43,911 nucleotides of DNA from a virus: the IMG/VR virus record IMGVR_UViG_3300029985_000005, positions 1 through 43,911 of that record. One strand, 5' to 3'. Below the pieces are notes generated by a model. That model searched no databases, was not told where the DNA came from, and saw nothing but the letters and a program-made list of their open reading frames with translations. Position numbers and translations under genes: made by a program. Of the stretch, positions 1 through 43,784 are shown piece by piece. How positions within the stretch are numbered: position 1 is the first letter of the stretch; every line of letters starts with the position of its first letter.

Positions 1-127
1 TGCTCGTTATTTTTACAGCGATGTATAGCGTATTTGTAGCATAAATATCACACTAAACAGCGATAGTTGAACATATTGTACGTTTTTTTAGATTAATATT
101 TTTACAATTGTTCAAAAAATATGATAA
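1..127. repeat. 127-bp exact direct terminal repeat, left copy
   Basis: These 127 bases are identical to 43785-43911. The length equals a common maximum k-mer of de Bruijn assemblers, so the simplest reading is an assembly overlap marking a circular or circularly permuted genome, not a biological terminal repeat. The copy lies inside the gene-free control region upstream of the terminase small subunit. Confidence 0.95.
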
Positions 128-589
128 CCGATGACTTTATACAGTTTTTCAAAAAAAGACAAAAATGAAAGTCTCTGACAGTTGATGTACATGTGTAGTT
201 GTGATAGATTAGGTTATAACATTGATAGACTTAGTATATACGAATGATGCTTCGGTTATGCCTCTAAGCCACGTCTGCCAACGGTCTGTATTGTGCTTAG
301 GCTATGCTGCGGTTATGTGATTGCATGCAGTCAGACGACTATACTTAGTTAGTTAACTTATTGATTAATATTAATATAATAAAGTATAAGATAAACACAG
401 TATATACTAATAGCGGGATAGCGAGATAACCGTACGTTGTTTAGAGCTGGGAGTGTACAACGTATGTATATACTCGTCGTACATGCCGATGTGAAAAAAG
501 TATAAATAACTTCAACTATCGGTTATCTCGCTATAAAACTATACTCATGGTAAATACGGCCTTATTAATCAGTAGGTTACGCATAACCG
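123..589. repeat. cluster of six CGGTTATS octamers, candidate iterons
   Basis: The octamer CGGTTAT(C/G) or its complement occurs at 123-130 (-), 253-260 (+), 310-317 (+), 425-432 (-), 520-527 (+) and 582-589 (-). Extended copies pair into inverted repeats: 252-261 with 581-590 (10 bp) and 418-432 with 520-534 (15 bp). Six hits in under 500 bp is far more than chance for an 8-mer. The stretch has no gene and lies near the primase/helicase gene, so a replication origin or a regulator-binding array is the likely role; which one is not shown by sequence. Confidence 0.7.
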
Positions 590-622
590 ACCCTCTAGCG
601 AGGACAGCACATTGGTATATAC
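234..622. repeat. four copies of the palindrome GTATATAC
   Basis: The self-complementary octamer GTATATAC occurs at 234-241, 400-407, 466-473 and 615-622, interspersed with the CGGTTATS copies. Perfect palindromes of this length suit dimeric protein binding or an easily melted AT element. The last copy sits just upstream of the promoter for the gene at 693. Confidence 0.55.
418..534. repeat. nested inverted repeats, possible cruciform
   Basis: A perfect 15-bp inverted repeat (418-432 and 520-534, arm ATAGCGAGATAACCG) encloses 87 bp. Inside it, directly abutting the left arm, is a second perfect 8-bp inverted repeat (433-440 TACGTTGT and 457-464 ACAACGTA). Both outer arms contain a CGGTTATC octamer. 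No gene is present here. The arrangement suggests an origin structure or a paired-operator loop. Confidence 0.6.
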
Positions 623-624
623 CG

Positions 625-653
625 TTGTGATAAAATGACACAAATTATACAAT
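625..653 (+). promoter_or_regulatory. candidate sigma70-like promoter for the gene at 693
   Basis: A -35-like TTGTGA (625-630) and a -10-like TACAAT (648-653) are separated by exactly 17 bp. The -10 is about 40 bp before the ATG at 693, leaving room for a short leader with a CGGAGAT ribosome-binding site (678-684). This is a motif match only. Confidence 0.4.
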
Positions 654-692
654 TTTTTAGTATTTTTAATAACCAAACGGAGATCAACCAAA

Positions 693-989
693 ATGAGAGT
701 AGTTTTCAGAAGAACAGCGTTACAAGAAGGATTACATAAATATTTCACTGGAGAACCGTGCAAAAACGGTCACGTTGATATGAGATACACTGCGACCGCT
801 TCTTGCGTGAGTTGCCGCCGTGAATATAACCGTGACAAATTCATGGTTAGCCGTTATTTCAAAATTTATCGCGAAGAGGAGGATTTTATTCAAGAGCTGG
901 TAGGATATATAGCGATGTGGCGTAAAGATCTTTCAGGACGTGAAAAAATAGCTTTCTTGAAGTCCTACTTTGAGACTCTTAAGTTATAA
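693..989 (+). CDS. small zinc-finger protein, endonuclease VII-associated type
   Basis: 98 residues. Residues 18-45 carry a KYFTGEPCKNGHVDMRY block followed by SCVSCRREYN, giving Cys and His ligands of a small zinc finger. From memory, this pattern occurs in phage proteins related to recombination endonuclease VII and fused to several phage nucleases. No nuclease catalytic domain follows: the C-terminal half is an unknown, probably helical segment rich in Lys and Glu. It is a lone rightward gene with leader ACGGAGATCAACC, facing the leftward primase gene across a strong hairpin. A DNA-binding or regulatory role is the modest inference. Confidence 0.7.
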   Translation: MRVVFRRTALQEGLHKYFTGEPCKNGHVDMRYTATASCVSCRREYNRDKFMVSRYFKIYREEEDFIQELVGYIAMWRKDLSGREKIAFLKSYFETLKL

Positions 990-1068: not shown

Positions 1069-3381
1069 TTAGCTGCCGTACTGCGCATTCTCGTAATCAC
1101 GGACAGCTTCGCTCGGCGATATGCCCTCTTCCACTTTCTCTCTGTGAATGTAAATTCGGGGTTGCACCGTTTCGTTTTTTGGTATTCTGCTAGCGCGCCC
1201 GTTTGTGAGCGCGGGGTGCAGAACATACCCAATGTCATTTAAAAGTTTCTGTATCCCCTGCGCATGTATATATATGCGTGCTTCTTTCATTAGCGCTAAG
1301 AGATGAGTAGAACTGATGTAACCACCGCGAAAACCTACGCGATTACTTTCGATAGCTTCTATTAGTTCGTCATGACAGGGGGTGCGAACTGATAGATTGA
1401 CAGCTTCGACAGTTGAAGATGTAAAGGGTGCGACGAGACTTTCAACCGCAGGATTGTACTTGTCCGGTATTTCGAGATTTTTAAGATAATGAGTTGTGTA
1501 TTTAAATCCCTTGATTCTAAGCCACATTACTAATTCTCTAAAATATTTCTCATCGAGTCCTGAGCGTATAAGCTGCTCACGAGACTGTTGATGGCTGAAA
1601 AACATAGCGAATCGTCTTGTTTCTTCTGTTTTTCTAATGCCGTCTTTGTGATTAGTTGACAAAATAAAATTAGCGCATACATCCCGTGTGATTTTTTCAC
1701 CCCCCTTCGGCTCTATCTCTAATCTATCACTATCAATCATCGGCTTAACGGCTTCGATAATGTCGGCTTTACTCGAAGGAATGTATACATCATCGATAAT
1801 GACTAGTGTTTTTGCGTATAACCAACCGTTGAATCGTGCTGCAATCTCTTTCGATTGCGCAAAATGCACATAACGCTCGCCGATAGCGTACGCGACGATA
1901 CGAGAGAGCAATGATTTTCCATTGCCTTCAACGCCTTGCAGGACGGGACACCAACGAAATTTAATGCCCTGGTGTTGCACAAGAGCTGCGAAGTAATAGA
2001 GTAATTTTTTTTGATCTTCTTCGTTAGGATAAAGACTTGACAAATGGTTTAAAAACGGGATCACATCTCCCGCTTCGCATTCAATTGTAGGCGGATACCA
2101 AATATTAGCTTGCGAAATTCCGTTTTTATTTTCGATCTCCATGGGTTTTAAAGCAGGCTTAAAGCAGGTTGTATCGGCTTTTGGAAAGTTAAGCAATTGT
2201 GACTCAGTAAAACACTCAAATGCATTACGCGTAGTACGTGAATTTGCAGCATCCATGACGAACGTTTTAGATCCGAAAATTGCTTTGAATCGATCCGCTG
2301 TGAGCAATTGTCCGCCCGGCACTAATATCTTGTGTTCATCCTTGACGTATATGCAATTTTTAAAATGATTTATCTGTTGCTCTGCGCTTAAAAACGCGCT
2401 GTCAGTTCGATATAAAGCTTTTTGTGTACAATCCGTTTCTGATGTGTTACTATTTTCTGTGTGAATTTCCGTTTGATTTAAGTTATTTATTTGCGTCGTG
2501 TAAAACGTAGTTTGTCTCTTTGTTGCGTTCGTGATCGTTATAGAGAGATAATCTACGTTGCCGCGTTTTGAAGTCCATTTTTCTCTTGCTAATTTGGATT
2601 TATACATCAGCTGTCGTATTCTTTGTTCGTCATTCCCTGTCCAAAACGCTAAGTGCTGCGCGAGTGCGGCATCGGCTGACGAATGATTGTATGCGTGCTC
2701 TAATTTCTTGGGCGGATAAGCACGTGATAACGATTCGATATTTCCTTCCCACAGATCTCTAAAACACACTGAATTCGTAAATACTGACTTAGCAGATTTT
2801 GAATTTAATGCACGCTGAATTAATTCTTCATCGCTTTCGCTATTTCCATTGCTGACAATACCTGCGGATTCCCAAACAGTTGAATTATCGTTTTTAAAAA
2901 ATTCGGAAATAACACTGTTTAAAATCACAGTTTTATTTTGGCTTGCATCTCCGCGCGCTTCAAATCCCGTCAATGCTGCAAAACGCCGAGTGTGATATAG
3001 CTCTATATTTAAATCTGCATTTTTACATGCATGCGGATCAATGTGATCATACGTTCCAAAAATGTGAATACCGTTTTTAGATCTCGATACTTCCACTGCT
3101 GCGCCGTCGAACAATGTTATAAGTTTTTCAGCTATCGAATTCATCTTTCCGTTGTCGATGCAATGATCGATATCTAAGAAAAAAAACGGATCGTTATCTG
3201 TGAACACGAATCCTATTTCAAGCGAAGTATGAATTTGCGTTAACATTTCTGCGTGTCGATATTGAAGCCAGTTTTTTGAATCGTGTGGATCGCCAGGTTT
3301 TAACGAAATTGGATCGAGAGGAATTTTATTTCTGTGTAAAATAAATTGAGCATAACTCTCCATCGCTGAAAATACAGCCAT
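1069..3381 (-). CDS. primase-polymerase / SF3-type helicase (NrS-1-like)
   Basis: 770 residues; replication protein expected to prime and unwind DNA. The N-terminal archaeo-eukaryotic primase-like domain shows FFFLDID (Asp70, Asp72) and SKNGIHIFG (about 101-109). Residues about 233-270 (SSADAALAQHLAFW... KLAREKW) resemble the helix-bundle domain of NrS-1-type polymerases. The C-terminal DUF5906/D5-like ATPase has Walker A GVEGNGKS (483-490), Walker B LVIIDD (526-531) and the sensor-like FILSTNH (about 572-578). The start has AAGGAAG upstream. It is the last gene of the leftward helicase operon. The phage also encodes a family A polymerase, so priming rather than bulk synthesis is the likely role here. 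Confidence 0.88.
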   Translation of the reverse strand: MAVFSAMESYAQFILHRNKIPLDPISLKPGDPHDSKNWLQYRHAEMLTQIHTSLEIGFVFTDNDPFFFLDIDHCIDNGKMNSIAEKLITLFDGAAVEVSRSKNGIHIFGTYDHIDPHACKNADLNIELYHTRRFAALTGFEARGDASQNKTVILNSVISEFFKNDNSTVWESAGIVSNGNSESDEELIQRALNSKSAKSVFTNSVCFRDLWEGNIESLSRAYPPKKLEHAYNHSSADAALAQHLAFWTGNDEQRIRQLMYKSKLAREKWTSKRGNVDYLSITITNATKRQTTFYTTQINNLNQTEIHTENSNTSETDCTQKALYRTDSAFLSAEQQINHFKNCIYVKDEHKILVPGGQLLTADRFKAIFGSKTFVMDAANSRTTRNAFECFTESQLLNFPKADTTCFKPALKPMEIENKNGISQANIWYPPTIECEAGDVIPFLNHLSSLYPNEEDQKKLLYYFAALVQHQGIKFRWCPVLQGVEGNGKSLLSRIVAYAIGERYVHFAQSKEIAARFNGWLYAKTLVIIDDVYIPSSKADIIEAVKPMIDSDRLEIEPKGGEKITRDVCANFILSTNHKDGIRKTEETRRFAMFFSHQQSREQLIRSGLDEKYFRELVMWLRIKGFKYTTHYLKNLEIPDKYNPAVESLVAPFTSSTVEAVNLSVRTPCHDELIEAIESNRVGFRGGYISSTHLLALMKEARIYIHAQGIQKLLNDIGYVLHPALTNGRASRIPKNETVQPRIYIHREKVEEGISPSEAVRDYENAQYGS

Positions 3382-3412: not shown

Positions 3413-3727
3413 CTATTTAGCTAAATGTGTCATTACTTTATCGCGTAAATGCTCAGGTATACATTTAATATCCTTTTGCGCTAGCGCTTGTAAAATTATT
3501 TCAACGCATTCTATTTCAATTGCTTTTTTGATAATTTGTTTTCTTAAATTACCCATCGTTTTAAAATAGTGATGTATCAACGCGCCGGTGCATCTAGCTT
3601 GTTTTGCTATTTCTTCACGCGTGACTTTATCATACCCTTTTGTTTTACTGATATTTACACCGTGATTTAACAACTCATCATATCGAGCTGCTGGGTCGAG
3701 AGATCTTCTTCGTTTTCGTTTTGCCAC
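3413..3727 (-). CDS. TetR-like HTH transcriptional regulator, GTG start
   Basis: 104 residues. After a basic N-terminus (AKRKRRR), residues about 20-65 match a TetR-type DNA-binding domain: KGYDKVTREEIAKQARC then TGALIHHYFKTMGNL. The remaining short C-terminus is far smaller than a standard TetR ligand domain, as in some phage versions. I chose the GTG at 3727 because AGGAGGAGAAAA lies directly before it; an in-frame ATG at 3784 has no such site and would add 19 residues inside the upstream gene. It sits in the leftward replication operon and could bind the palindromic operators at 6063-6100, giving autoregulation; that link is inference. Confidence 0.75.
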   Translation of the reverse strand: MAKRKRRRSLDPAARYDELLNHGVNISKTKGYDKVTREEIAKQARCTGALIHHYFKTMGNLRKQIIKKAIEIECVEIILQALAQKDIKCIPEHLRDKVMTHLAK

Positions 3728-3945
3728 TTTTCTCCTCCTACTGCTGCTAAGCAATTGATAACAACGCTCACGCATTTTCTGCATGCTTTTATATTTGATG
3801 ACGGTATCTGCGCATTAATGACAGCTTGATCAATTGATTTAAAATAAAATTCATGCGTTAACGCATTTCCGCATAAGCTAATCGTTTCTTCATGCACGTG
3901 TTTAATTTCAGCTGCTACAATGTTCCCATTTTTGTCGCAAAGCAT
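3667..3945 (-). CDS. small Cys-containing protein, unknown function
   Basis: 92 residues. It has an N-terminal LCDKNGN segment, a central ACRKCVSVV that could hold zinc with the other Cys residues, and a polar acidic C-terminus. A GGGAGG ribosome-binding site precedes the ATG. Its 3' end overlaps the GTG start of the TetR-like gene by 61 bases, and its start overlaps the VRR-NUC gene end by 31 bases, so it is embedded in a tightly packed operon and probably translationally coupled. I do not recognise the family. Confidence 0.65.
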   Translation of the reverse strand: MLCDKNGNIVAAEIKHVHEETISLCGNALTHEFYFKSIDQAVINAQIPSSNIKACRKCVSVVINCLAAVGGEKWQNENEEDLSTQQLDMMSC

Positions 3946-4407: not shown

Positions 4408-6039
4408 TCACAATACACCTTCGTTAACTAACACGTCAATATCTTTTTTTATCTGTAACATTAATTCACTCGCATCTGTCGCATTTAAAAGTTGTGCGTT
4501 TGCAACATCTATCTTGAACTTAAAATAAAAAGAACGATAGATAAATGAATCAGATTTATTTGTATGTTTTAAATATCCCGCCCACTGCGCAATGAGATCA
4601 CGAAGTTCTTGCTGCACTATTTTACGATCGCGATGACGTTTAATCTGCGTCTGTTGCGCAATCGGCGGGATGTGTGGATTGACACGCGGTGGGTCAAGAA
4701 TAGCGGATATCTCACCGCGAAGTTTAGCTAATATCTCACTTGATAATTCGTTTAAGTCTCCGTCTACATACTCAGGAGCCGATCGATTAGTCGGAACAGG
4801 CACATAGTCGCAGAATGGGCACGAACGTAAAACCCGTTTATATACTGAGAAACATTCGACACAAGATATAAGTAATATTTCGTCATTTTGTTTACTACGA
4901 CTACGCTTTTCGCGTCGATCTAAAGTCCAAATTCTAGGCGCATCAGGCAATCCGTGTCTGAGTACGTTACCCACGTGATCAATAATCAACGCATGTTTTT
5001 TACTGTTCTTTGGTCTTAACGCACGACCAAAACTTTGACTATATAATCCATACGATTCTGTAGGCCGTGCCATGCTGACTACTTCAATTGCAGGTACGTC
5101 AACTCCTTCACCTAAAATATCCACGTTTACAATTTGTTTTATTTCTTCGTTTCGAAATCGACGCATGATATTTGCGCGCAGTGTCGCGGGTGTTTTACCC
5201 GTGATTAATTCGGCTTTGATACCTGCGGCACAGAATGCGGTTTTAATTTCAACGGCAGCATCTACATCAACTGCAAACGTCACACCGAGTTTTCCTGGTG
5301 CGATCTTTAAATAGTGTTTAACAATGTCGCCTGTGATTTGTGATTTATGTACTGCTTTGCGCAGCGGATCAAAACTAAAATCGCCGGTTGAACCTACGGG
5401 TACGTTCGATAAATCAAGATCATTCGGGGGTGCGAAAATACGATAATCTGTGAGAAATCCGTCATGTATTAATTGACGCATCGGGATACCGACAATTAAA
5501 TCATCGAGTATGCCGTCTGAATGCCGACCCAACCCGTTACCGTCCGCGCGACATGGCGTTGCGGTCGGGTAGAGCCCGTACGCATTTGAAAATAATTCCG
5601 CGGCTCTTCCCCATTTATTTTTTTTAAGCGGGTGATGCCCCTCATCTTGCACTACTAATGAAATACTTTTAAACCACGGCGTGTCAGCAGATAAACGCAG
5701 AAGCGTGTCAATACCTGCAACGACTATATTAGACGTTGATTTATAAAATGATCGCCCTACCTCATCGTGATGTAACGCAATAATTTCTCTTATCGATTGT
5801 TTTTGCGCGATGATGTTATGCGCGATATTGTAACGTGCGAGTGTGAGCGATATCTGACTGACTAACTCAACACGATGAGCGATTGCGATCGCACCCCCGG
5901 GGTGATGCGCGAGAATGTAACTAAAAATACACGTCTTTCCACCACCCGTGTGCAGTTGAACGCCGACATTTTTATTACCGCGTTGCCATGATTCGTATAT
6001 TTGACGCACAAGGTCTTTCTGATATTCACGTAAAATCAT
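4408..6039 (-). CDS. SF2 DEAD/DEAH-type helicase with C-terminal zinc finger
   Basis: 543 residues. Motif I is HTGGGKT (30-36), motif II QDEGHH (131-136) and motif III TATP (159-162). The C-terminal RecA domain has GEGVDVPAIEVV and the motif VI-like QSFGRALRP. Near residue 390-410 a CVEC...CPFC pair forms a probable zinc ribbon. The family unwinds or remodels duplex DNA in phage replication and recombination. It is the first gene of the leftward replication operon, with GGAGAT upstream, and is transcribed divergently from the early operon across a 81-bp control region. Confidence 0.92.
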   Translation of the reverse strand: MILREYQKDLVRQIYESWQRGNKNVGVQLHTGGGKTCIFSYILAHHPGGAIAIAHRVELVSQISLTLARYNIAHNIIAQKQSIREIIALHHDEVGRSFYKSTSNIVVAGIDTLLRLSADTPWFKSISLVVQDEGHHPLKKNKWGRAAELFSNAYGLYPTATPCRADGNGLGRHSDGILDDLIVGIPMRQLIHDGFLTDYRIFAPPNDLDLSNVPVGSTGDFSFDPLRKAVHKSQITGDIVKHYLKIAPGKLGVTFAVDVDAAVEIKTAFCAAGIKAELITGKTPATLRANIMRRFRNEEIKQIVNVDILGEGVDVPAIEVVSMARPTESYGLYSQSFGRALRPKNSKKHALIIDHVGNVLRHGLPDAPRIWTLDRREKRSRSKQNDEILLISCVECFSVYKRVLRSCPFCDYVPVPTNRSAPEYVDGDLNELSSEILAKLRGEISAILDPPRVNPHIPPIAQQTQIKRHRDRKIVQQELRDLIAQWAGYLKHTNKSDSFIYRSFYFKFKIDVANAQLLNATDASELMLQIKKDIDVLVNEGVL

Positions 6040-8411: not shown

Positions 8412-8837
8412 ATGGAAAAACAAATAGTAGAAATTAACGGCATCAAATTAGAAATCGACATGCGTCATGCTAGAAAGATAGAAAATTATAAAGTCGGCGA
8501 TTGTGTAAAAGTTTTAATAAAAAAATATTCTGACACTTACGAAACTTATCCAGGCGTTATCATTGACTTTGACGATTTTCAGAATTTACCTACAATCACA
8601 GTTTGCTACGTTGAATTAGGTTATAGCACTGCTGAAATTAAATTTATCGCTATAAATTCTAAATCAAAAGAATATGAGATAGTTCACTTACCTGACCACG
8701 AAAAGCATATCGATAAACAAAGAGCAATAGATTTACTAGACATGCAAGTTTTAAAAAAAGAGGAAGAGCTTTTCGAAATTAAACGGAAACGCGCTTATTT
8801 CATCGAAAAATTTAAACAGAGTTTTGAAAACAAATAA
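8412..8837 (+). CDS. conserved phage protein with beta-barrel-like N-terminus and C-terminal coiled coil
   Basis: 141 residues. The segment YKVGDCVKVLIKKY...YPGVIIDFDDFQNLPTI...CYVELGYSTAEIKFIAIN is a pattern I recall from many large and medium phages, resembling a KOW/SH3-like small beta barrel. Residues about 100-138 form a charged helix (DKQRAIDLLDMQVLKKEEELFEIK) likely to coil. Function is unknown in the family as far as I know. Leader GACGGAGATAAACAATG. Confidence 0.72.
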   Translation: MEKQIVEINGIKLEIDMRHARKIENYKVGDCVKVLIKKYSDTYETYPGVIIDFDDFQNLPTITVCYVELGYSTAEIKFIAINSKSKEYEIVHLPDHEKHIDKQRAIDLLDMQVLKKEEELFEIKRKRAYFIEKFKQSFENK

Positions 8838-11983: not shown

Positions 11984-12014
11984 TGAATTTAACTTGAAAA
12001 AAGGAGATACGAAA

Positions 12015-12905
12015 ATGACACACAAGATAGAATTACTCACCCCCGTAGGTAGGTTAGTACAAGGCTCACTCTACGTCGGACGCACTACTGATGCAGAAGG
12101 CAGACCGCTCATTACTAAAAGCGGACAAAATGCGGGAAAGCCTGCGGTTAATTATTTTTTCGCGATTGCAATTGAAAAAAGAGGCGAAACGCATTGGAAC
12201 CAAACCGAATGGGGTGCAAAAATTTGGAAAATCGGGCAGGCAGGATTTCCCAACGGGCAGTATATGTCCCCCGCTTTCGCATGGAAAATAAAAGATGGTG
12301 ATTCAGCAATTCCCAATACCAAGGGTATCGCGCCATGTCAAATGGAAGGGTTTCCAGGTCATTGGATTTTAAATTTTTCAAAAAACAATATTCCGCCAAT
12401 GATTTACACAGATAACGGCGACAGGCAGTTACTAGAACCTGAAGCGGTAAAATTAGGCGACTACATACAATGCTATGGAGACGTTGCAGACAATGAAGCC
12501 GTTCAACAACCCGGCGTATATTTGAATTTTAAGTACGTGTGCTTGATACGTGAAGGCCGTCGAATAGTAGTGGGTTTAGCTGCGAAAGATGTCGGATTTG
12601 GTGGAGAAATGCCGCAAAATATACTTCTACCTGATCCTATGAAAACGGGATTTAATCCAGCCGCTGTTCCTGTCAGTCCTGTACATGCTAATACTGCGTA
12701 TACTAACCCTCCCGCCCACCAACCCTCACCTGTCACGCCGCATTACGGTATTTTAGCAGGTTCTTCTACGCATGTTCCTGTAGCTCCTACACCGATGCGA
12801 ATACAGATACTTCCGAGTGCCAACGGTGTCACTTACGAGCAATTTAGAATGCTTGGAATGACAGATGATCAATTGATCTCAAAAGGTTTAGCGCATTACG
12901 TTTAG
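12015..12905 (+). CDS. ssDNA-binding protein, DUF2815 / T7 gp2.5-like
   Basis: 296 residues from the ATG at 12015, chosen because AAGGAG (12001-12006) lies 8 bases before it. The first about 195 residues form the DUF2815-like OB-fold region: TPVGRLVQGSLYVGRTT, then NYFFAIAIEKRG, ILNFSKNNIPP and YIQCYGDVADN...GVYLNFKYVCLI. A Pro-rich flexible linker (about 215-265) leads to a short C-terminal helix. Unlike most SSBs the last residues are not an acidic tail (it ends GLAHYV). It coats replication intermediates; position next to the DUF2800 nuclease and polymerase fits. Confidence 0.85.
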   Translation: MTHKIELLTPVGRLVQGSLYVGRTTDAEGRPLITKSGQNAGKPAVNYFFAIAIEKRGETHWNQTEWGAKIWKIGQAGFPNGQYMSPAFAWKIKDGDSAIPNTKGIAPCQMEGFPGHWILNFSKNNIPPMIYTDNGDRQLLEPEAVKLGDYIQCYGDVADNEAVQQPGVYLNFKYVCLIREGRRIVVGLAAKDVGFGGEMPQNILLPDPMKTGFNPAAVPVSPVHANTAYTNPPAHQPSPVTPHYGILAGSSTHVPVAPTPMRIQILPSANGVTYEQFRMLGMTDDQLISKGLAHYV

Positions 12906-12952: not shown

Positions 12953-13273
12953 ATGAAATATTCTAAAAAAATTCAGAAAATATCCGACGATCTTATCGCT
13001 AATATACTGCAATGTGTCAGCGACAATATGGAACGTAATGAAGATAATATGATAGAAGATTTTGAATCAAACCCAGGAACTTCGCCCTTCGTAGTTTTCC
13101 ACCTATCACCTTCCGCTGTGATAAAAGCGTATTCTCTTCTTTTCGGGTCTATGCTAGATCAAATACCGAAAGAAGGCGCTTTAGAGTTAATACTAAGCAA
13201 TAGAGAAATGTTACTCTCTTTAGCAGAACAATTGCGAAATTTACAAAACAAATACAAAACTAAAGGTCATTGA
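12953..13273 (+). CDS. hypothetical helical protein
   Basis: 106 residues from the ATG at 12953, preceded by CAAGGAAATAAA. A GTG at 12905 in the same frame would read through the GC hairpin and has no ribosome-binding site. The protein is mostly helical and acidic at residues 20-40, with LLLSLAEQLRNLQNKYKT at the end. No family recognised. Confidence 0.62.
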   Translation: MKYSKKIQKISDDLIANILQCVSDNMERNEDNMIEDFESNPGTSPFVVFHLSPSAVIKAYSLLFGSMLDQIPKEGALELILSNREMLLSLAEQLRNLQNKYKTKGH

Positions 13274-13284
13274 GGATAGAAACA

Positions 13285-13611
13285 ATGGGATCAGCTGAAA
13301 ATGTTAAACCTGTTTGCGAGCATTGCGGGGGCAACGGGGAGTTCTATGTTACTAAAGAATCTGAACTGCATATCGTAGAGTGTAAATACTGTAGAGGGGG
13401 AATCATAGATTTTAATATAAGTGTATATGATTCTTTTCAAAATTTATTATCTTTATTGAAGGAAATGGATTTATGTTACCCGGATTCATTTTTTAAAGCG
13501 GACGTTTTTGAAATAAACACAAAGTATTGGGATAATAAAATTTTAATTATCAAAGGTAGACCAGTTGTCCCCACGGTTAAAAAGGTAATTTCTGAAATAG
13601 ATATAGAATAG
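13285..13611 (+). CDS. DnaJ-like zinc-finger small protein
   Basis: 108 residues. CEHCGGNGEF and ECKYCRGGIID near residues 11-42 match the CxxCxGxG-type half repeats of DnaJ zinc fingers. The rest is a helix-rich unknown domain. The ATG at 13285 follows GAGGATAG; an upstream TTG at 13270 is less likely. No J-domain is present, so it is not a co-chaperone in the strict sense. Confidence 0.7.
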   Translation: MGSAENVKPVCEHCGGNGEFYVTKESELHIVECKYCRGGIIDFNISVYDSFQNLLSLLKEMDLCYPDSFFKADVFEINTKYWDNKILIIKGRPVVPTVKKVISEIDIE

Positions 13612-13621
13612 GAGGATCACG

Positions 13622-13930
13622 ATGCTACCGCCCGAAGATAAAGTTTCGAGTACTGGCCAAAAAATTATGGAAAAACTTTTTAAGTTGTTTTGTTCAGAAA
13701 TTGAAATACTAGAAAAAGACGCTAAAATTCCGCGTGACGAGTACTGTAGGATCATCAGGTCTGTTGCGTTTAGCTTTTACGTAGTAACTATGTCTTATTC
13801 TTTTTCGGATGTTCCTCGAGAAGATGCAAAAATTATTATTTCAGAAATGGTAATTGAGGTTCATTCTGGTTTGCATAAAGTGCTAAATACACTGTCTGAA
13901 TTCAAAGATAAAATCACGCTGGAGACATAG
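13622..13930 (+). CDS. hypothetical helical protein
   Basis: 102 residues preceded by a very strong AGGAGG site. All-helical appearance (KIMEKLFKLFCSEIEILEKDAK, SEMVIEVHSGLHKVLNTLSEF). One base separates its stop from the next start. No family recognised. Confidence 0.65.
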   Translation: MLPPEDKVSSTGQKIMEKLFKLFCSEIEILEKDAKIPRDEYCRIIRSVAFSFYVVTMSYSFSDVPREDAKIIISEMVIEVHSGLHKVLNTLSEFKDKITLET

Positions 13931-14330: not shown

Positions 14331-14518
14331 AAAATGAATTAATTAAAAAAAATAAACATAAACGAAGTATGATATCTTTAGACGATGTAGCTGTTGCTCA
14401 GCTCAATGATCTTTCTGTTTCTATGCGCTTGACAAAAAGTTTAATCATACGAAAAGCAATTGACGAATTATATTATAGAGAAAAAAATAATGTCAAAAAA
14501 AGTTTACATAGATTTTGA
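14327..14518 (+). CDS. ribbon-helix-helix DNA-binding protein, GTG start
   Basis: 63 residues. After a basic N-terminus, RSMISLDDVAVAQLNDLSVS then TKSLIIRKAIDELYY fits the strand-helix-helix of Arc/CopG-type regulators. GTG start has GAGGTGG close upstream and overlaps the previous stop. Its 3' end overlaps the polymerase start by 29 bases, so it may regulate expression of this cluster; target unknown. Confidence 0.72.
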   Translation: MKNELIKKNKHKRSMISLDDVAVAQLNDLSVSMRLTKSLIIRKAIDELYYREKNNVKKSLHRF

Positions 14519-16607
14519 AACGTATTCAGAAGCCGGTTTCGAATGGGATGAAAATAAGCAATCCTGGAACTCACTTCCTAACTCTTCTAAAAAAGGTCTT
14601 CCTGCAATTGGAATTGCGCCCTACGCTACACATCCTTCAACTGAAATACTGTGCATGGCTTACGCGTTTGACGATGAGCCGAATGTAAACGTGTGGCTGC
14701 CGGGCGACCCTTTCCCCGATAGGTTACAAGAACACGTAGATAATTATGGTCAAATTGAAGCGTGGAATGTGGCTTTTGAAAGATGGATTTGGACATATGT
14801 AGGATGTTGTAGATACGGATTTCCTCTTAACGATTGTATCCAATTTGTATGCACACAATCTAGAGCAAGAGCATTTTGTTTACCGCCCTCTCTCGCTGAA
14901 GCCGGCGAAGTTTTACAGATACAAAATCAAAAAGACAAAGATGGTTGGCGTTTAATTAATAAATTCAGCATGCCGCGAAATCCAACAATTCGTGATAAAC
15001 GAAAACGTATTACGTTTCAAGATGACCCTGTTGATGCGATGCGAATGATAGATTACTGTATACGTGACGTTGTAGCAGAGCGTGAAATTGATAAACAAAT
15101 CCCCCAATTATCTACATTTGAATTTAAATTTTGGAAAATAGATCAAGCTATAAATGAGCGCGGTGTGTCACTTGACTTAAAATCCATTGATAATTTTATA
15201 AATATCGCTGAATCAGCCTATAAAAAATATAACGCCCGTTTATCAGAAATCACGGGTGGTGAAGTAAATTCCGCGACTGAAATATTTAAATTAAAAACAT
15301 GGTTAGCAAAGCGTGGATTATTAGTTGAATCGCTAGATGCAGCGCATTTAGCTGAATTATTAACGCGTCAACTCCCCCTCGACATTTACGAAGCGCTTTC
15401 TATACGCGATAAAATTGGTTCTTCTGCGGTTAAAAAACTTTACGCGATGAAAAATAAACATTTCAAAGGACGCGCTAATGAGCTATTCGTCTATCACGCG
15501 GCACGCACGGGTCGTGCAGCAGGTGCAGGGATACAACCGCAGAATTTACCAAATCACGGTTTAACAGTTTCTATCTGTAAAAACTGTGAAAAAACAACGA
15601 GTCTAAAACAGTTTTGCCCGCGTTGTTTTTCAACGGAATTAGTACGAGATCAAGAGTGGAATTCGAAAGCCACGGAAGACGTAATAGAGTTAACATCATT
15701 AAATGATTTAGAATTTTGCTACGGAGATGCGATCGGTGCGATTTCCGGATGTTTACGCGGAATGTTTGTTTCACGGGAGGGTTATGATTTAATTTGCAGC
15801 GATTATTCAGCCATTGAAGCCGTAGTGTTAGCTGCAATATCTGAAGAAACGTGGCGATTAAGCGTATTTAAAACACACGGGTTTATTTACGAAATGTCAG
15901 CGTCTAAGATAACTGCAATACCTTTAGAAGAATATTTAGAGTATAAATCCAAAAATAAAAAACATCATCCTGATCGTAAAATCGGAAAAGTTGCGGAATT
16001 AGCGAGCGGATTTGGCGGGAGCATAGGCGCGTGGAAACGATTTAAAGCAGACGAATTTTTAACAGATGAGCAGATAATGCAAGCGGTATCTGCGTGGCGC
16101 AAAGCAAGTCCCGGAATCGTGAAACTGTGGTACGGTCTTGAAAAAGCCGCTAAGGATTCTATTTTAAATCCACAAACTGTTTATTCATACGGCGCTATAA
16201 AGTATTTTACGTCAAACGATATACTGCATTGTATTCTACCCTCTTCACGTTTCATCACTTATCATCGACCACGCATAATAGACAATGCGATCACTTTTGA
16301 AGGATATAATTCTAATGAAAATAACGGCGCCCGGGGATGGATGCGCATAGATACTTACGGCGGTAAATTAACTGAAAACTGTGTTCAGGCAATAGCGCGT
16401 GACATTCTCGCAAATGCGATCGTTAATTTAGAAAACGTAGGATATGAAGTAGTTATGCATATTCACGACGAAATCGTAGCCGAAATACCTGAAAAGTGGG
16501 GGTCAATTCAAGAGTTTGAAGAAATAATGTCAACATTGCCTATTTGGGCACACGGTTGGCCATTAAAAGCATCCGGCGGTTGGCGCGGTAAACGTTACAC
16601 TAAGTAG
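14490..16607 (+). CDS. family A DNA polymerase with 3'-5' exonuclease and inserted zinc ribbon
   Basis: 705 residues. Exo I is YIDFETYS (Asp8, Glu10). Polymerase motif A is LICSDYSAIEA (Asp438), motif B RKIGKVAELASGFGG (about 496-510), motif C MHIHDEIV (Asp660). Between the thumb and motif A, CKNC (363-366) and CPRC (376-379) form a zinc ribbon not present in T7-type enzymes. The ATG at 14490 starts a clean exonuclease domain; an upstream TTG at 14460 adds ten residues without a ribosome-binding site. It is the last gene of the rightward operon and converges with the late operon. Confidence 0.93.
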   Translation: MSKKVYIDFETYSEAGFEWDENKQSWNSLPNSSKKGLPAIGIAPYATHPSTEILCMAYAFDDEPNVNVWLPGDPFPDRLQEHVDNYGQIEAWNVAFERWIWTYVGCCRYGFPLNDCIQFVCTQSRARAFCLPPSLAEAGEVLQIQNQKDKDGWRLINKFSMPRNPTIRDKRKRITFQDDPVDAMRMIDYCIRDVVAEREIDKQIPQLSTFEFKFWKIDQAINERGVSLDLKSIDNFINIAESAYKKYNARLSEITGGEVNSATEIFKLKTWLAKRGLLVESLDAAHLAELLTRQLPLDIYEALSIRDKIGSSAVKKLYAMKNKHFKGRANELFVYHAARTGRAAGAGIQPQNLPNHGLTVSICKNCEKTTSLKQFCPRCFSTELVRDQEWNSKATEDVIELTSLNDLEFCYGDAIGAISGCLRGMFVSREGYDLICSDYSAIEAVVLAAISEETWRLSVFKTHGFIYEMSASKITAIPLEEYLEYKSKNKKHHPDRKIGKVAELASGFGGSIGAWKRFKADEFLTDEQIMQAVSAWRKASPGIVKLWYGLEKAAKDSILNPQTVYSYGAIKYFTSNDILHCILPSSRFITYHRPRIIDNAITFEGYNSNENNGARGWMRIDTYGGKLTENCVQAIARDILANAIVNLENVGYEVVMHIHDEIVAEIPEKWGSIQEFEEIMSTLPIWAHGWPLKASGGWRGKRYTK

Positions 16608-17094: not shown

Positions 17095-17367
17095 TTAAAC
17101 TCCATTTATTTTATCGACTTGATAAACTGTTACATCGTGCCATTGCTTATACCCTTTCGCTCGTGCGACCCAAAATTTAACAACTTGATCGGGGGTTGAA
17201 GATGAAGTTAATTTATCTTTAAAAACGGGAGAAGAAATCAACACAACTTTGGGACAATCATAAACAATAGGCGCAGGTTTAACAGCACACGATACGCAGC
17301 TAAAAGTTAATAGATTGAGTATAGCCCCATGCCACAGCCTTTTTACATGTCTTAGATACTTTTTCAT
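17095..17367 (-). CDS. outer-membrane spanin (Rz1-like lipoprotein)
   Basis: 90 residues. A basic N-terminus and hydrophobic ILNLLTFSCVSC resemble a lipoprotein signal with a non-ideal lipobox (CVS-Cys at about residue 27). The mature part is short, with Pro residues (KPAPIVYDCP). It starts 68 bases inside the preceding i-spanin gene in another frame, the classic overlapping Rz/Rz1 layout. The pair fuses inner and outer membranes at the last step of lysis in Gram-negative hosts. Confidence 0.78.
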   Translation of the reverse strand: MKKYLRHVKRLWHGAILNLLTFSCVSCAVKPAPIVYDCPKVVLISSPVFKDKLTSSSTPDQVVKFWVARAKGYKQWHDVTVYQVDKINGV

Positions 17368-17605
17368 TTTCTATGCTCTCAACATTAGTTTTAATTGACT
17401 GCTCTTGTACGACTACTTCCGAATTTATTTTATCTACTTGTTCTAGTTGTTTCTGTGATTCATCTTTTAATTCTTGTATTTGTGCTATACATCTGTCTGA
17501 TAATTTTTTATAATGGTTTTTCTCTATAAACTCAACACTTAAAAATACCCAAAAAACTATCACAATCACTGATATAGAGATTATTTTAATATTTTCCAAA
17601 TTCAT
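17300..17605 (-). CDS. inner-membrane spanin (Rz-like)
   Basis: 101 residues. One N-terminal membrane segment (IKIISISVIVIVFWVFLSV) followed by a long charged coiled coil (KLSDRCIAQIQELKDESQKQ...). TAGGAG precedes the start. The overlap with the lipoprotein gene and the position after endolysin and holin support the call. Confidence 0.82.
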   Translation of the reverse strand: MNLENIKIISISVIVIVFWVFLSVEFIEKNHYKKLSDRCIAQIQELKDESQKQLEQVDKINSEVVVQEQSIKTNVESIENEKVSKTCKKAVAWGYTQSINF

Positions 17606-17614
17606 TTAACGCTC

Positions 17615-17866
17615 CTATTCTTCTTTTGATTTAGGCTCAGTGTCGCTTTTTAATTTCAAATTAACGCCAAAACCGACCGTCATAGCGCTGATCCCACCGC
17701 CAAAATCTAAGGGACTCCATTCCCGATGTATCATGACACTCCCTAACCCTAAAACAAAATAGATAAAAAAACTTAACAAACATAAAACGCGAGAACTATC
17801 ATACGTTTCGTTGTCACGACCTGTGAGGATATGTTTACACATTTTTCTAAATTCAGTAATAACCAT
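17615..17866 (-). CDS. holin-like small membrane protein
   Basis: 83 residues from the ATG at 17866, which has GGGAGG 8 bases upstream. An alternative ATG at 17884 overlaps the endolysin stop (ATGA) and would add six residues. Two hydrophobic segments (LCLLSFFIYFVLGLGSVMI, and FGGGISAMTVGFGVNL) and a charged tail (SDTEPKSKEE) fit a class II holin. It lies between the endolysin and spanins. Confidence 0.75.
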   Translation of the reverse strand: MVITEFRKMCKHILTGRDNETYDSSRVLCLLSFFIYFVLGLGSVMIHREWSPLDFGGGISAMTVGFGVNLKLKSDTEPKSKEE

Positions 17867-39504: not shown

Positions 39505-39873
39505 TTAAACCTCTGTAATAAACATCGATACTAGATCAACTGGGACGAGGGCATGCATTTCTTCCACGGTTTTACAATTCGAAAAATCTATATCTTTAAA
39601 AGCTCTTAATTTTTTACGATCTTGTAATAACTTATTTTTTAAATCTGAATCACCATCTTCTTCAGCCATTTCAATTTCAGTTGAAATTTTAGATATTTTC
39701 TCATCGATAGCCGAGTTTAATTTATTCTTAAACAAAGTCTGACATTCATCAATTTTATGATAAGCGTGGCTAATCCCGTCGAAATGCACATGGCCGTGAT
39801 ACTCAGGATGTTTTTTATTTAAATCCCAGTATGACTGTAAAAATTCATCTGGTTCTTTCTGTATTATTATCAT
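39505..39873 (-). CDS. hypothetical protein downstream of the tail fibre
   Basis: 122 residues. N-terminus contains PEYHGHVHFDGISHAYHK, a His-rich stretch, followed by a charged helix (KISKISTEIEMAEEDGDSDLKNKLLQDRKKL). ATGA overlap with the fibre gene suggests coupled expression, as for fibre chaperones, but no known chaperone motif is seen. Confidence 0.65.
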   Translation of the reverse strand: MIIIQKEPDEFLQSYWDLNKKHPEYHGHVHFDGISHAYHKIDECQTLFKNKLNSAIDEKISKISTEIEMAEEDGDSDLKNKLLQDRKKLRAFKDIDFSNCKTVEEMHALVPVDLVSMFITEV

Positions 39874-42800
39874 AATCCTAACATCCCGTAGATTGTAAAT
39901 ACCGCGGTGTTAATATTTCCGCTATTAAAAAATACTTTAAAACTATTTATGCCTGCGGTTGCCTGCGTGCAATTCACTAAATATAGAACGCCGCCTTGGG
40001 TGATCGACCCCGAGATTTGAACAGTGCCGTAATTTAAATTTCTAATAAACAAATGTCCCGCAGCGGCTCCCGCATTAGCAAATCCTGCACTCAATATGAT
40101 AGAGGATGTTGAGCTTGAATTGCTCCACGTAGTAGAGCCGCCTCCCGTATTATTACTCGTGACACCGCCTGTATAGCCGCTAGTTAAAAAAGAGCTACCA
40201 AGATTATTAGAAAGTAGGATACCTAACGCATTACCCCCGGAAACAGGCAGTAAATTTTGAAATAAAATTAAAATGGTATTAAATTGAGTAATGGGCAACG
40301 CAGTTGACTGCGTAAAGGTGATTGAAGCTACTGTACCACCCGTTACTGACACCGTTTCTAAAAAAGATAAACCCGCAGTCCCAAGCCATGCAGATCCGTT
40401 ATAAAAATAGGGCAAACCCCATAAGCTATTAAAAACTTCTAATCCGGTAGGGGGACTGCTTATATTAGTATAGGGGGCACTATTTAACGGCATTAAAAAC
40501 CCAGCATTGTTACCGCTTGAAAATAGCGAAAGTACCGCACTGTTCACAAAGGATGTGGAACCAATCGCAACGACATTGCCTGTGCCTCCTTCGCCCTGCA
40601 AAATCAACGGACGACCAACAACGCCATTTTCTACCGCTTGAATCCATGCGTAATTCATCGCAGACGCAGAATAATTGACACCCATAGCTAAGCGCGGAAT
40701 ACCAGGAGCACTTGTCGTAGTACCGCTTAGAAGAATAGACCCGATTTCCCCGCTTGGTACAGATGACGCATCAAACACATGGAATTTAGCCGAAGGAGCA
40801 CTTAGACCGACACCAAATTTACCTGATACCGCGCCTCCGTTGGCCGATGTAACAGTTCCGCTTGCAAAACCGACTTGAAAATTTCCAGGTACAGAAAGAC
40901 TTGTCGCAGGTGAGGGATCACCTATACCCACGTTGCCGCTTGTATTTAAAGTTATTCCTGTTAAAAAACTTATAGCGCTTCCAGCCGTTGTAGATGAATA
41001 ATCTATCTCAAAAAGATTAGACGTTTTTGCAAATCTAAAATTACCATTCGAAGAATTGCTTATGATACTCGTGCCGTTATAATAACAATCCCAAAACATC
41101 TCGAGATTGTCCCGGCCAAAAACTTCAAATATTAGATACGCATTTGAACCTGTTCCGCCTACTGAAAATCCAGTGCTATTAATATTTCCATTCACATCTA
41201 AGAAAGAATTCGCATCAGGTAAACCCGTGTTAATACCTAAAACACCCGGGATATAAACGCCTGCTGTATATCCTATTGTGATTTTTTTAGGAGTTCCTAA
41301 ATCTGTCGAAATGTAATCTATGATCCCCGAATTCGGTTGTATCCTTATCATTCCGTTGGTGCTACTGCTTCCGGTTTGAGTAGAATCTACAATCGCTAAT
41401 TGACGATTACCGGTAGCGTTGTGCGCCATCATTAACGCAATACCATCTGTCGAAGAATTCGCATCCATCGAATTGCCGGACAATACTATATTTGCGTAAC
41501 GTGCGGTTTGTACGCCGACGTTTAAAGAATAATTCGGCGTGGGTTTAGCAGTCGTTGCGATGTCGACACCGCCTTGTTGAAAATAAGCGGTATAACGAGT
41601 GGTACCCGCCGTTTGAATCGAGCAATATAGACCGTACGAAGTGGTTATACTTCCAGATCCGGCGAGTGATCCGGAATCTATCCAATGACCGTACGCTGTT
41701 GTATATGTTTGTCCGCTCGGAGGCGAAAGACGAATAGCAGTGTATTGCCCCGCAACATACGTAACGGAATTGCAATTAAAAATAGGTTCTACATCAAGTC
41801 CGAGTGCGATGGTTCCTGCCGCGCTACTAATCGTCGAAATTACTTGTAATCCAATGTAGGTAAGTATTGAACTACCACCGACTAACAGGCTATTCGTTAT
41901 ATAAACATTCGCAGGGAGACTTACCGTAGCAACGCCCGAAGTCGTCGAAACCGATACTTGATTTGCAGTACCTGAAACTGCCGTTATGCCGCCAATCGTA
42001 CCAGTATTTGAAATCGTAAATGCGCCCGTTGAAGGGTTGAACGATACACCTATTCCCGTCCCCGCGCCTATTGACCCTTTGATTAGATTTGTCGATGAAG
42101 TTTGACCGACGAGTATCTGCCCGTCTGTGTATGTGCTAAATCCCGTTCCGCCGATAGACGAGACGAGGGGTATCGCAGTCCACGTCATCGGCGCGGCTGA
42201 TCCACCACCTGAAGCTAGTAAATATCCGGCTACCCCCGCCGTTACCGGTAAATTAAAATTATAAGTGCCTGCTGTCGCTTGCGGAAGTATCGATATCAAA
42301 CCGCTTGACGAACCGCCTAATTCTAATCCTGCGAACTGGGGCGACGAAGTAGTCGCAATATCTTGTATCGTGTTAATCGCCGCTGCTGTAAATTTTAGAT
42401 TTGTTGTGTTGATCACAGCAGATAAAACATTACCTGTGATTCCGATTCCGTTCCCGGCCATGAAATAATTTGCGCGTGTGAATAGGATTGGGGAAGTTCC
42501 GACAACTATCGTACCGGTTGTCGTCTGATACCACATCGTGCCTGCATTGAGTGTACCCGACTCTATGATCGTGTATGTTCCTGCAGCCATTTCTGCGCTG
42601 GTGTTATAGTCTATCGCGCGTGTCCATACTTCTTGTATTCCCGTCCCGCCGAGGGTAGACACTGTATAGATGCCGTTTTGCAGCTGATTCGCACCTGCTT
42701 GATCTTTCATCAGTACTCGATATCCGAGTACCGTAGTAAAACCATCGATAGTCTGAGAACCTGTCGCTGTAAAAGTGAATGTCGCGCCAACACCGCTCAC

Positions 42801-43055
42801 ACCGTTGACGTATATTCCCGTCAGTGCTCCGGTCGTTGCAAGCGTGCAAGGCGCTTTCGGGCTTAACCCTGATATAACTGCGTTGAGTTGTTGAAATGTA
42901 ACCGCTTGTAACGCTAGCGTTGCGTCTGCGTTGAGTATCAAATTTCCTGTCATCGTGCCGCCGGTCAGTGGCAGATAACCCGGCAGAATTGGCGAACCGC
43001 CGTACGGCACGTTAAAAACTGCTAACCATTTTATAAATTCGCTGGCTGAGATCAT
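39870..43055 (-). CDS. large tail fibre/spike protein
   Basis: 1061 residues from the ATG at 43055, which overlaps the preceding stop (ATGA); a GTG at 43067 would add four. YLPLTGGTMTGNLILN is the fibre N-terminal repeat; VLMKDQAGANQLQNGIYTV...WTRAIDYNTSAEMAAGTYTIIESGT is a common fibre domain; then GGTGFSTYTDGQILVG and several beta repeats such as LNTSGNVGIGDPSPATSLSVPGNF. The C-terminus is Gly/Ser/Asn-rich beta. No chaperone peptidase motif is evident. Host receptor binding is the likely role. Confidence 0.88.
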   Translation of the reverse strand: MISASEFIKWLAVFNVPYGGSPILPGYLPLTGGTMTGNLILNADATLALQAVTFQQLNAVISGLSPKAPCTLATTGALTGIYVNGVSGVGATFTFTATGSQTIDGFTTVLGYRVLMKDQAGANQLQNGIYTVSTLGGTGIQEVWTRAIDYNTSAEMAAGTYTIIESGTLNAGTMWYQTTTGTIVVGTSPILFTRANYFMAGNGIGITGNVLSAVINTTNLKFTAAAINTIQDIATTSSPQFAGLELGGSSSGLISILPQATAGTYNFNLPVTAGVAGYLLASGGGSAAPMTWTAIPLVSSIGGTGFSTYTDGQILVGQTSSTNLIKGSIGAGTGIGVSFNPSTGAFTISNTGTIGGITAVSGTANQVSVSTTSGVATVSLPANVYITNSLLVGGSSILTYIGLQVISTISSAAGTIALGLDVEPIFNCNSVTYVAGQYTAIRLSPPSGQTYTTAYGHWIDSGSLAGSGSITTSYGLYCSIQTAGTTRYTAYFQQGGVDIATTAKPTPNYSLNVGVQTARYANIVLSGNSMDANSSTDGIALMMAHNATGNRQLAIVDSTQTGSSSTNGMIRIQPNSGIIDYISTDLGTPKKITIGYTAGVYIPGVLGINTGLPDANSFLDVNGNINSTGFSVGGTGSNAYLIFEVFGRDNLEMFWDCYYNGTSIISNSSNGNFRFAKTSNLFEIDYSSTTAGSAISFLTGITLNTSGNVGIGDPSPATSLSVPGNFQVGFASGTVTSANGGAVSGKFGVGLSAPSAKFHVFDASSVPSGEIGSILLSGTTTSAPGIPRLAMGVNYSASAMNYAWIQAVENGVVGRPLILQGEGGTGNVVAIGSTSFVNSAVLSLFSSGNNAGFLMPLNSAPYTNISSPPTGLEVFNSLWGLPYFYNGSAWLGTAGLSFLETVSVTGGTVASITFTQSTALPITQFNTILILFQNLLPVSGGNALGILLSNNLGSSFLTSGYTGGVTSNNTGGGSTTWSNSSSTSSIILSAGFANAGAAAGHLFIRNLNYGTVQISGSITQGGVLYLVNCTQATAGINSFKVFFNSGNINTAVFTIYGMLGL

Positions 43056-43234
43056 TGTTTCACCCACCCAGAAATAACGGTTATGTTCGTTCCGTTGTTC
43101 GTAAAGGTCTGTTGATAGGTATTCCCGACATACACGACTTGAATGTATGAGACGAAAGAACCTGAATAAGTTATATTTTGCGTAAGTGCATCCAGTGGCA
43201 GCATGACGCCGTCACTTGCCAAAACCGTCAACAT
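43052..43234 (-). CDS. small protein between TerS and tail fibre
   Basis: 60 residues. AAGGAG lies 9 bases before the ATG, the start overlaps the TerS gene and the stop overlaps the fibre start (ATGA), which together make it a real gene despite its size. Beta-rich sequence (ITYSGSFVSYIQVVYVGNTYQQTFTNN) resembles small fibre-associated proteins. No family recognised. Confidence 0.7.
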   Translation of the reverse strand: MLTVLASDGVMLPLDALTQNITYSGSFVSYIQVVYVGNTYQQTFTNNGTNITVISGWVKQ

Positions 43235-43634
43235 CGAAAAGCTCTCCTTGCATGATTTTTTGGTAAAGTCTGGATGCTTCGTTCGGATCGTTGAGATCGT
43301 TGAAGTTTACAGTTATCCCATTGTATATTTTATTTTTTAATTTTTCATCAGCAGTTTGTAAATCTTCAAATTTACCCACGGTTTTCAAATAGTACATGAT
43401 CGCTTTGAGATCACCGCCTTTAGCACGATCTAACAGTTTTCCTGCCACTTCACTGATCGCTAATGCTCTTCCACGCGCGAATGTGAGCCCGATTTTTGGG
43501 TATTTAGATTTTACGTCTTCCCATTGCTGCATGCTCACTTCGTAGTAGTCAGCGATCTGATTTTCAGTTAATCCACGACCTGCGAGCAATTTCACATCTT
43601 CAAGAAAACTCGGTCTTTCGAAAAATGAAGTCAT
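43212..43634 (-). CDS. terS: terminase small subunit
   Basis: 140 residues from the ATG at 43634 (AAGGACTAAA upstream); an in-frame ATG at 43658 lacks a site. HTH segment: DVKLLAGRGLTENQIADYYEVSMQQWEDVKSKYP, then IGLTFARGRALAISEVAGKLLDRAKGGDLKAIMYYLKT, typical of phage TerS. First gene of the leftward late operon, next to the junction control region where packaging-site recognition would be expected. Confidence 0.82.
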   Translation of the reverse strand: MTSFFERPSFLEDVKLLAGRGLTENQIADYYEVSMQQWEDVKSKYPKIGLTFARGRALAISEVAGKLLDRAKGGDLKAIMYYLKTVGKFEDLQTADEKLKNKIYNGITVNFNDLNDPNEASRLYQKIMQGELFDVDGFGK

Positions 43635-43784
43635 TTTAGTCCTTATCGAACATATCATGCGTAATATTAAAACATATCCACGCTGGAATCGCTATACATA
43701 CAAGATAATAGACCAAAGTGTCGTTTTCTGTTCAAAAGTTGCTGAATTTTTTATGCTCAAAAAAATCATAGCGAGCACTATACA
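43635..43784. promoter_or_regulatory. gene-free leader of the late operon
   Basis: No gene. A weak leftward promoter candidate has TTGAAC (complement of 43730-43735) and TATTAT (complement of 43705-43710) with a long 19-bp spacer. CGCTATACAT (43690-43699) recurs inverted as ATGTATAGCG at 21-30. CGAGCA-N7-TGCTCG (43772-43790) is a small hairpin across the repeat boundary. Confidence 0.4.

Follow-up and report, generated by a model that had tools for sequence, protein, structure and literature searches.

What is the function of the gene-free gap next to the terminase small subunit gene (terS) of this phage? The window, by which we mean the whole 43,911-nt stretch analysed here (IMG/VR record IMGVR_UViG_3300029985_000005), had been noted for an origin-like region at this place, read in the original prediction as either an iteron-type replication origin or a multi-operator switch. 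The last 127 bp of the record are identical to its first 127 bp, and a 23.9-kb contig (IMGVR_UViG_3300029911_000146) crosses the join of the record and is 100% identical to it in both of the matching stretches that were compared. The phage genome is circular or circularly permuted, and the record covers its full 43,784-bp unit. The end overlap and the contig across the join further imply that the gap is really about 819 bp long (43659-43784 plus 1-692). It sits between the divergent terS and HNH-like genes (Table 1). The gene for an NrS-1-type primase-polymerase is convergent with the HNH-like gene and ends at 1069, which places the gap downstream of it with a single intervening gene.

Table 1. 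Features of the gap and of its gene neighbourhood, in positions of the record.
Feature	Position	Strand	Remark
Gene-free gap, main part	1-692		rest is 43659-43784
Gene-free gap, other end, adjoining terS	43659-43784		
Terminase small subunit (terS), opens the leftward late/structural operon	43212-43658	-	phrog_309, E 1.5e-14
Small HNH/endonuclease-VII-like gene flanking the gap	693-989	+	phrog_1081, 2e-14; endonuclease VII, 1.4e-5
NrS-1-type primase-polymerase/helicase (AEP, HBD and DUF5906 helicase), proposed initiator	1069-3381	-	
TetR-like protein, possible accessory binder	3413-3784	-	
DEAD/ResIII helicase, replication module	4408-6039	-	
Gp2.5-like ssDNA-binding/annealing protein	11994-12905	+	
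DNA polymerase	14460-16607	+	
CGGTTATC word	123-130	-	
GTATATAC palindrome	234-241		
CGGTTATG word	253-260	+	
CGGTTATG word	310-317	+	
Candidate DNA-unwinding element, A+T-rich	353-412		nearest-neighbour energies
GTATATAC palindrome, edge of AT core	400-407		
15-bp perfect inverted repeat, left arm	418-432		
CGGTTATC word, within left arm of 15-bp inverted repeat	425-432	-	
Inner 8-bp inverted repeat, left arm	433-440		read from sequence
Inner 8-bp inverted repeat, right arm	457-464		read from sequence
GTATATAC palindrome	466-473		
15-bp perfect inverted repeat, right arm	520-534		
CGGTTATC word, within right arm of 15-bp inverted repeat	520-527	+	
CGGTTATG word	582-589	-	
GTATATAC palindrome	615-622		

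Two further features of the neighbourhood were observed. Between the convergent ends of the HNH-like and primase genes lies a 15-bp perfect hairpin (996-1010 and 1026-1040) that looks like a two-way terminator. A gene for a 1065-residue virion-like protein (39870-43067) separates terS from the large subunit gene terL; these genes are also far apart in loci L027 and L076, and in L076 terS is followed by a long gene. No Rfam match to an RNA element was found in the window.

The six CGGTTATS and four GTATATAC octamers of the original prediction were all present where it had placed them, and far above expectation: dinucleotide-preserving shuffling of the 819-nt gap, repeated 5000 times, gave at most two copies of either. 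The best 7-mer with at least three G/C had six copies in the gap, which was matched by one of 2000 shuffles. Elsewhere in the 43,784-bp unit, CGGTTATS occurs only twice (at 7141 and 43078; both strands searched) and GTATATAC once (at 6950). The 15-bp inverted repeat enclosing an 8-bp inverted repeat was likewise confirmed, as was the claim that CGGTTATS copies (425 and 520) lie inside the arms of the former; a perfect inverted repeat of 15 bp was reached in none of 500 shuffles of the gap. Three CGGTTATS copies lie on each strand, at irregular spacings (130, 57, 115, 95 and 62). The copies at 310 and 425 flank an AT core (353-412), which by nearest-neighbour energies has the lowest duplex stability of all 60-bp windows in the 43.8-kb unit. 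These nearest words are 55 and 61 nt from the core centre and point inward.

Short words in both orientations, an AT core among the words and an initiator gene nearby are traits of iteron-type (SaPI-like) origins, and the gap shows all of them, with the primase gene as that of the proposed initiator. A DnaA-type origin was considered and rejected: the 48 terS-upstream regions contain no strict TTATCCACA box, and the window has one TTWTNCACA. GC skew, which the original prediction had offered as a check for an origin, lent it no support. Raw skew tracks gene direction, and third-position skew showed no leading/lagging difference across the gap (0.194 versus 0.194 at four-fold sites).

The proposed initiator is a protein of 770 residues with matches to the NrS-1 polymerase HBD (PF22763, 1.7e-21) and DUF5906 (4.4e-18). 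Its sequence matches in the PDB included the NrS-1 primase (N300), the NrS-1 helicase region (E 2.6e-4) and the SaPI5 primase-helicase. NrS-1 structures were also the top matches of its predicted structure (pLDDT 84.6), both for the N-terminal part (Z about 20.5, 251 aligned) and for the C-terminal part, where the match to the NrS-1 helicase 6k9c (Z 23.8, 371 aligned, rmsd 8.4) revealed the ring-helicase fold of an NrS-1-type enzyme. The SaPI5 primase-helicase (Z 17.3) and poxvirus D5-type helicases ranked after NrS-1, and PriRep1 with dsDNA aligned to the model up to residue 750 (Z 13.3, rmsd 7.8). Past the helicase, residues about 655-770 follow a helix-strand-helix-helix-strand-strand order in the predicted structure and could form a winged helix. 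The AEP D-x-D motif and downstream histidine (D70, D72 and H106) are invariant in all 33 aligned primases; on the basis of the alignment, we take these residues to be equivalent to the catalytic set of NrS-1. In the NrS-1 HBD, R249, K251 and Y261 are needed for priming, and changes to them weaken it (PMC8718748). Their equivalents in the window's primase, R266, K268 and Y278, are invariant in 9/9 and 33/33 aligned sequences.

Primer-free starts of NrS-1 polymerase occur at TTTGGTTA, and it uses a GTG-type site too (PMC8718748). The window's TCGGTTAT agrees with TTTGGTTA at six of eight positions at the best shift, which 2.3% of random 8-mers equal, so that at the sequence level the likeness is suggestive and no more. 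The words of L070, L115 and Agrobacterium phage 7-7-1 have no resemblance to the NrS-1 word.

We compared the gap with the corresponding regions of phages that share the primase. Scanning IMG/VR with the primase alignment gave 80 loci of 265 relatives; among the matches listed, none exceeded 43% identity. A recognisable terS or terL was present in 39 of the 80 loci, and the other 41 were left out of pooled tests. Regions were defined as the 1300 nt before terS or, for loci with terL only, as a stretch whose end lies 500 nt ahead of the terL match; the element of L104 lies just outside its 1300-nt stretch and was found by reading. The pooled word test used 35 non-redundant regions of 48 including the window, 13 having been dropped as redundant. 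In the 34 non-redundant relatives (window excluded), GGGGTA was the top 6-mer (78 copies versus 21 expected) and GTATATA was found 34 times versus 12 expected, while control stretches from the same loci (n = 28) contained 13 copies of GGGGTA versus 10.6 expected.

AT-rich DNA with inverted words was found in all nine phages, including the window, whose terS-upstream stretch was read, and the words differ among them. JD001, LAPP1, PEAT2, AAM22, MSW-3 and Scuro have TACCCCG/CGGGGTA (few copies in some), B2 has CCAAGTAC and the window CGGTTAT. In CP-T1 (L008), the element before terS (17340-17807) has long nested inverted repeats and three direct repeats of the GAGGGGTGTTATAAATTATAT type around an AT core that carries GTATATAC; the reported CP-T1 repeat array (12969-13158) lies away from this element. 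KLEP17-4, a structural relative without the enzyme, has no AT-rich inverted-word element in the stretch before terS, and no comparable element was recognised in Salmonella phage 9NA, whose primase is related over residues 19-297. The Edwardsiella phage MSW-3 (L011) has a second gap inside its structural genes (13619-13917) with four GGGGTA and an AT core, possibly a second origin. In L069, CTTGTAGCGGCTTGTAGCGGTCAATTCCCG-type tandem repeats lie beside TAGTGGTA words and an AT core (8660-8790).

Scanning IMG/VR for the exact pattern of the right inverted-repeat arm returned only the identical contig. The only close relative found is identical where it overlaps; distant relatives retain the arrangement but have other words. 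On the terS-sense strand, C-rich words lie to the left and G-rich words to the right of the AT core in 22 of 30 regions whose core is at least 80% AT, versus 33 of 74 control cores (the L072 and L070 regions were reset by hand after reading). The window departs from this C-to-G skew switch (-0.01). An outward orientation of GGGGTA was rejected as a rule, as 47 outward versus 24 inward words (71 in total) is near the value for random cores. A blind search for matching sequence on either side of AT cores placed the element first in B2, CP-T1, AAM22, L016, L070, L072, L076, L106, L116, L117 and some others; the window's gap was not among its four best, and the scan was noisy elsewhere.

In the primase tree, the window sits on a long branch in a group with L072, L016, L027, L070, L076 and L017 (support 100/99). 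The sister relation of the window and L072 is unsure, because both are long branches that meet. L072 has TGCACGGAT words on either side of an AT core, followed by hairpins and then terS. The words around the core are ATACCGGCC and GGCCGGTAT in L016, to its left and right, respectively, TATACCG.. and ..ACGGTATA in L027, CCGAAC and AGTCC in L076, and ATGACGAGTA in L070. In L016, L027 and L076, their distances from the core centre stay within about 25-75 nt and they are mostly directed outward, the reverse of the window; on reading, the words of L115 and those that come first on the left of the core in L104 appear inward too. That the word changes while the build is kept is as expected for an origin evolving with its initiator. 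Two of these loci have additional repeats. The hairpins of L072 (6440-6610) are two near-identical copies directly before terS, with two perfect DnaA boxes (TTATCCACA) each, and L016 has a tandem array of about 21-bp units between its word cluster and terS (13340-13450), a possible separate packaging site.

Low duplex stability also recurred among the relatives. Of seven complete genomes with the enzyme, six have their weakest 60-mer within 1300 nt before terS, and PEAT2 has rank 2. Under the same definition this was true for none of six controls (ranks none, 20, 2, 3, 21 and 24), which were structural relatives without a full-length NrS-1-type primase, one of them (L127) with a weak AEP match (1e-6). 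Across 43 loci, the weakest 60-mer fell in the candidate region in 30, versus 3.2 expected by length, and elsewhere in 13; six of these regions were set by hand (L050, L069, L070, L072, L104 and L115), and JD001 and Scuro are partial records (14 and 20.5 kb). For 7-7-1, OLIVR4 and Susan, AT content and words had guided the choice of region ahead of ranking, which makes their ranks non-independent.

The closest known systems resemble the locus in different ways. With NrS-1 it shares the AEP, HBD and ring helicase architecture, the HBD priming residues and a G-G-T-T-A word on both strands. However, the NrS-1 genome has two 8-mer copies, one per strand, near its middle, which were suggested as an origin, whereas in the window six words are combined with an inverted repeat and an AT core beside terS; the same source on NrS-1 (PMC7102993) calls the basis of word recognition by its polymerase unclear. 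Moreover, a primer-free start is known for the NrS-1 enzyme, while priming at CGGTTATS is only predicted here. The initiators of SaPIs, themselves helicases, bind iterons that immediately follow the initiator gene, and the related Cch2 of SCCmec uses its C-terminal domain to bind its repeats (PMC7581432). In the window, too, iterons follow a related primase-helicase gene at a short distance, and SaPI5 and PriRep1 are structural neighbours of the model, but this is a tailed-phage genome with other words and an HNH gene between primase and gap, and recognition by the helicase C-terminal domain, known in those elements, is here a possibility. The dwarf myophages compared (Jedunavirus JD001, Peatvirus PEAT2, Yokohamavirus MSW-3, Vibrio CP-T1 and Stenotrophomonas B2) share the replication module and have the same order of helicase, primase, gap, terS and terL, an AT core with inverted words in the gap and, in several, an annotated TetR-like gene. 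They differ in their words (TACCCCG/CGGGGTA, or CCAAGTAC in B2), in the longer inverted repeats of CP-T1 and in their primases, which are 26-41% identical to that of the window.

As the gap abuts terS in most relatives read, packaging must be weighed as an alternative: the gap could be a packaging initiation (pac/cos) site, with the words serving as binding sites for TerS, whose gene starts next to it. The gap adjoins terS in the window and eight named relatives, TerS-binding repeats near terS are usual, and GGGGTA is absent from four relatives in the window's clade that have a window-type TerS (L016, L027, L070 and L076). Still, we consider this explanation unlikely. L104 has a window-type TerS yet GGGGTA words, so the word does not follow TerS type. 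Nor is the element tied to terS across relatives. In 7-7-1, 6.8 kb separate terS from the AT-rich gap before it that carries ATTGAGTC words, and the primase is 19 kb away from this gap; OLIVR4 has a matching gap about 8.6 kb before terS, and Sinorhizobium phage Susan has an AT core with GGGGTA/TACCCC about 4 kb before it. Candidate elements at such distances (4-9 kb) argue against a pure packaging site. A gene that its translation suggests to be ParB-like directly follows the element in L070, L104 and L115 and separates it from terS. Since the regions of these six phages and loci were recognised by AT content and words, they show that element and terS are separable without proving it. Among loci with a window-type TerS, a word score above 5.4 was reached by none of eight without the primase in the slice and by two of eight with it, a weak test for which five of 22 TerS loci were left out as their contigs were already in the set.

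The gap is also flanked by divergent genes, GTATATAC is a perfect palindrome, and several relatives have TetR-like genes beside the primase, all of which would suit a multi-operator region where the TetR-like or another small protein switches the divergent terS and HNH promoters and the AT core is promoter DNA. Yet sigma-70-like sites showed no excess (three found versus 4.6 expected), the terS-upstream promoter DNA of six controls never contained the weakest 60-mer, and a 15-bp inverted repeat with a spacing of about 100 bp is unlike a simple operator, which leaves this switch quite improbable. That the gap is an accident or a remnant, with no dedicated function and with words that arose by chance in AT-rich leader DNA, might be argued from the octamer clusters, which are kept in no relative, and from the window's lack of the commonest word orientation. 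Given the shuffle tests and the same build recurring in distant relatives, we regard this as highly improbable.

Repeated words, the genome's weakest duplex and the same build in relatives sharing the primase together make a replication start the most likely function. We predict that the gap is probably the replication origin of the phage, of an iteron and AT-rich-core type, and is served by the phage's own NrS-1-type primase-polymerase/helicase. The origin half of the original prediction is thereby backed by the comparison with relatives, in position, AT core, inverted words and lowest duplex stability. Its suggested binders were the TetR-like, RHH or zinc-finger protein; homology to the NrS-1 and SaPI enzymes suggests that the primase-helicase is the likelier one, while the GTATATAC palindrome could be a target of the TetR-like protein, whose gene is annotated next to the primase in several of the relatives read. 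Against a replication origin speak the inward words of the window, unlike those of L016, L027 and L076, the lack of skew support and the presence of a second DNA polymerase gene, as well as the missing element of 9NA, the 13 loci with the weakest 60-mer elsewhere and the words of L070, L115 and 7-7-1, which are unlike that of NrS-1.

If the gap is the origin, the initiator would be the primase-helicase or a partner, for example the TetR-like protein; it would bind the words and melt the AT core, where the ring helicase would then load. The HBD may recognise a CGGTTA-type word on the exposed single strand and so give rise to a primer or strand start. Both strands could have starts, as copies of CGGTTATS lie on each strand to the left and right of the core. 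A bolder version, which we put forward tentatively and consider rather doubtful, predicts that the CGGTTATS copies are primer-independent template start sites read by the HBD and that the word of each lineage (CGGTTAT, GCCGGTAT, CGGGGTAT, TGCACGGAT or GTACTTGGGG) is matched to its own enzyme. If this were true, the enzyme would favour a matched TCGGTTATS template over TCGGGGTA, and these phages would hold a large family of mutually orthogonal origin/enzyme pairs whose strands start without RNA or a separate initiator protein.

In the open-access literature, we found no description of this element for Jedunavirus or for NrS-1/primase-polymerase phages. NrS-1 polymerase is a studied self-priming enzyme, and its genomic start sites have only been suggested so far. 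Fast-evolving words beside the weakest DNA in many phages provide a direct panel for testing how such an enzyme finds its start. The finding would also locate the replication origin of a widespread group of small phages that includes phages of Klebsiella, Vibrio, Acinetobacter and others.
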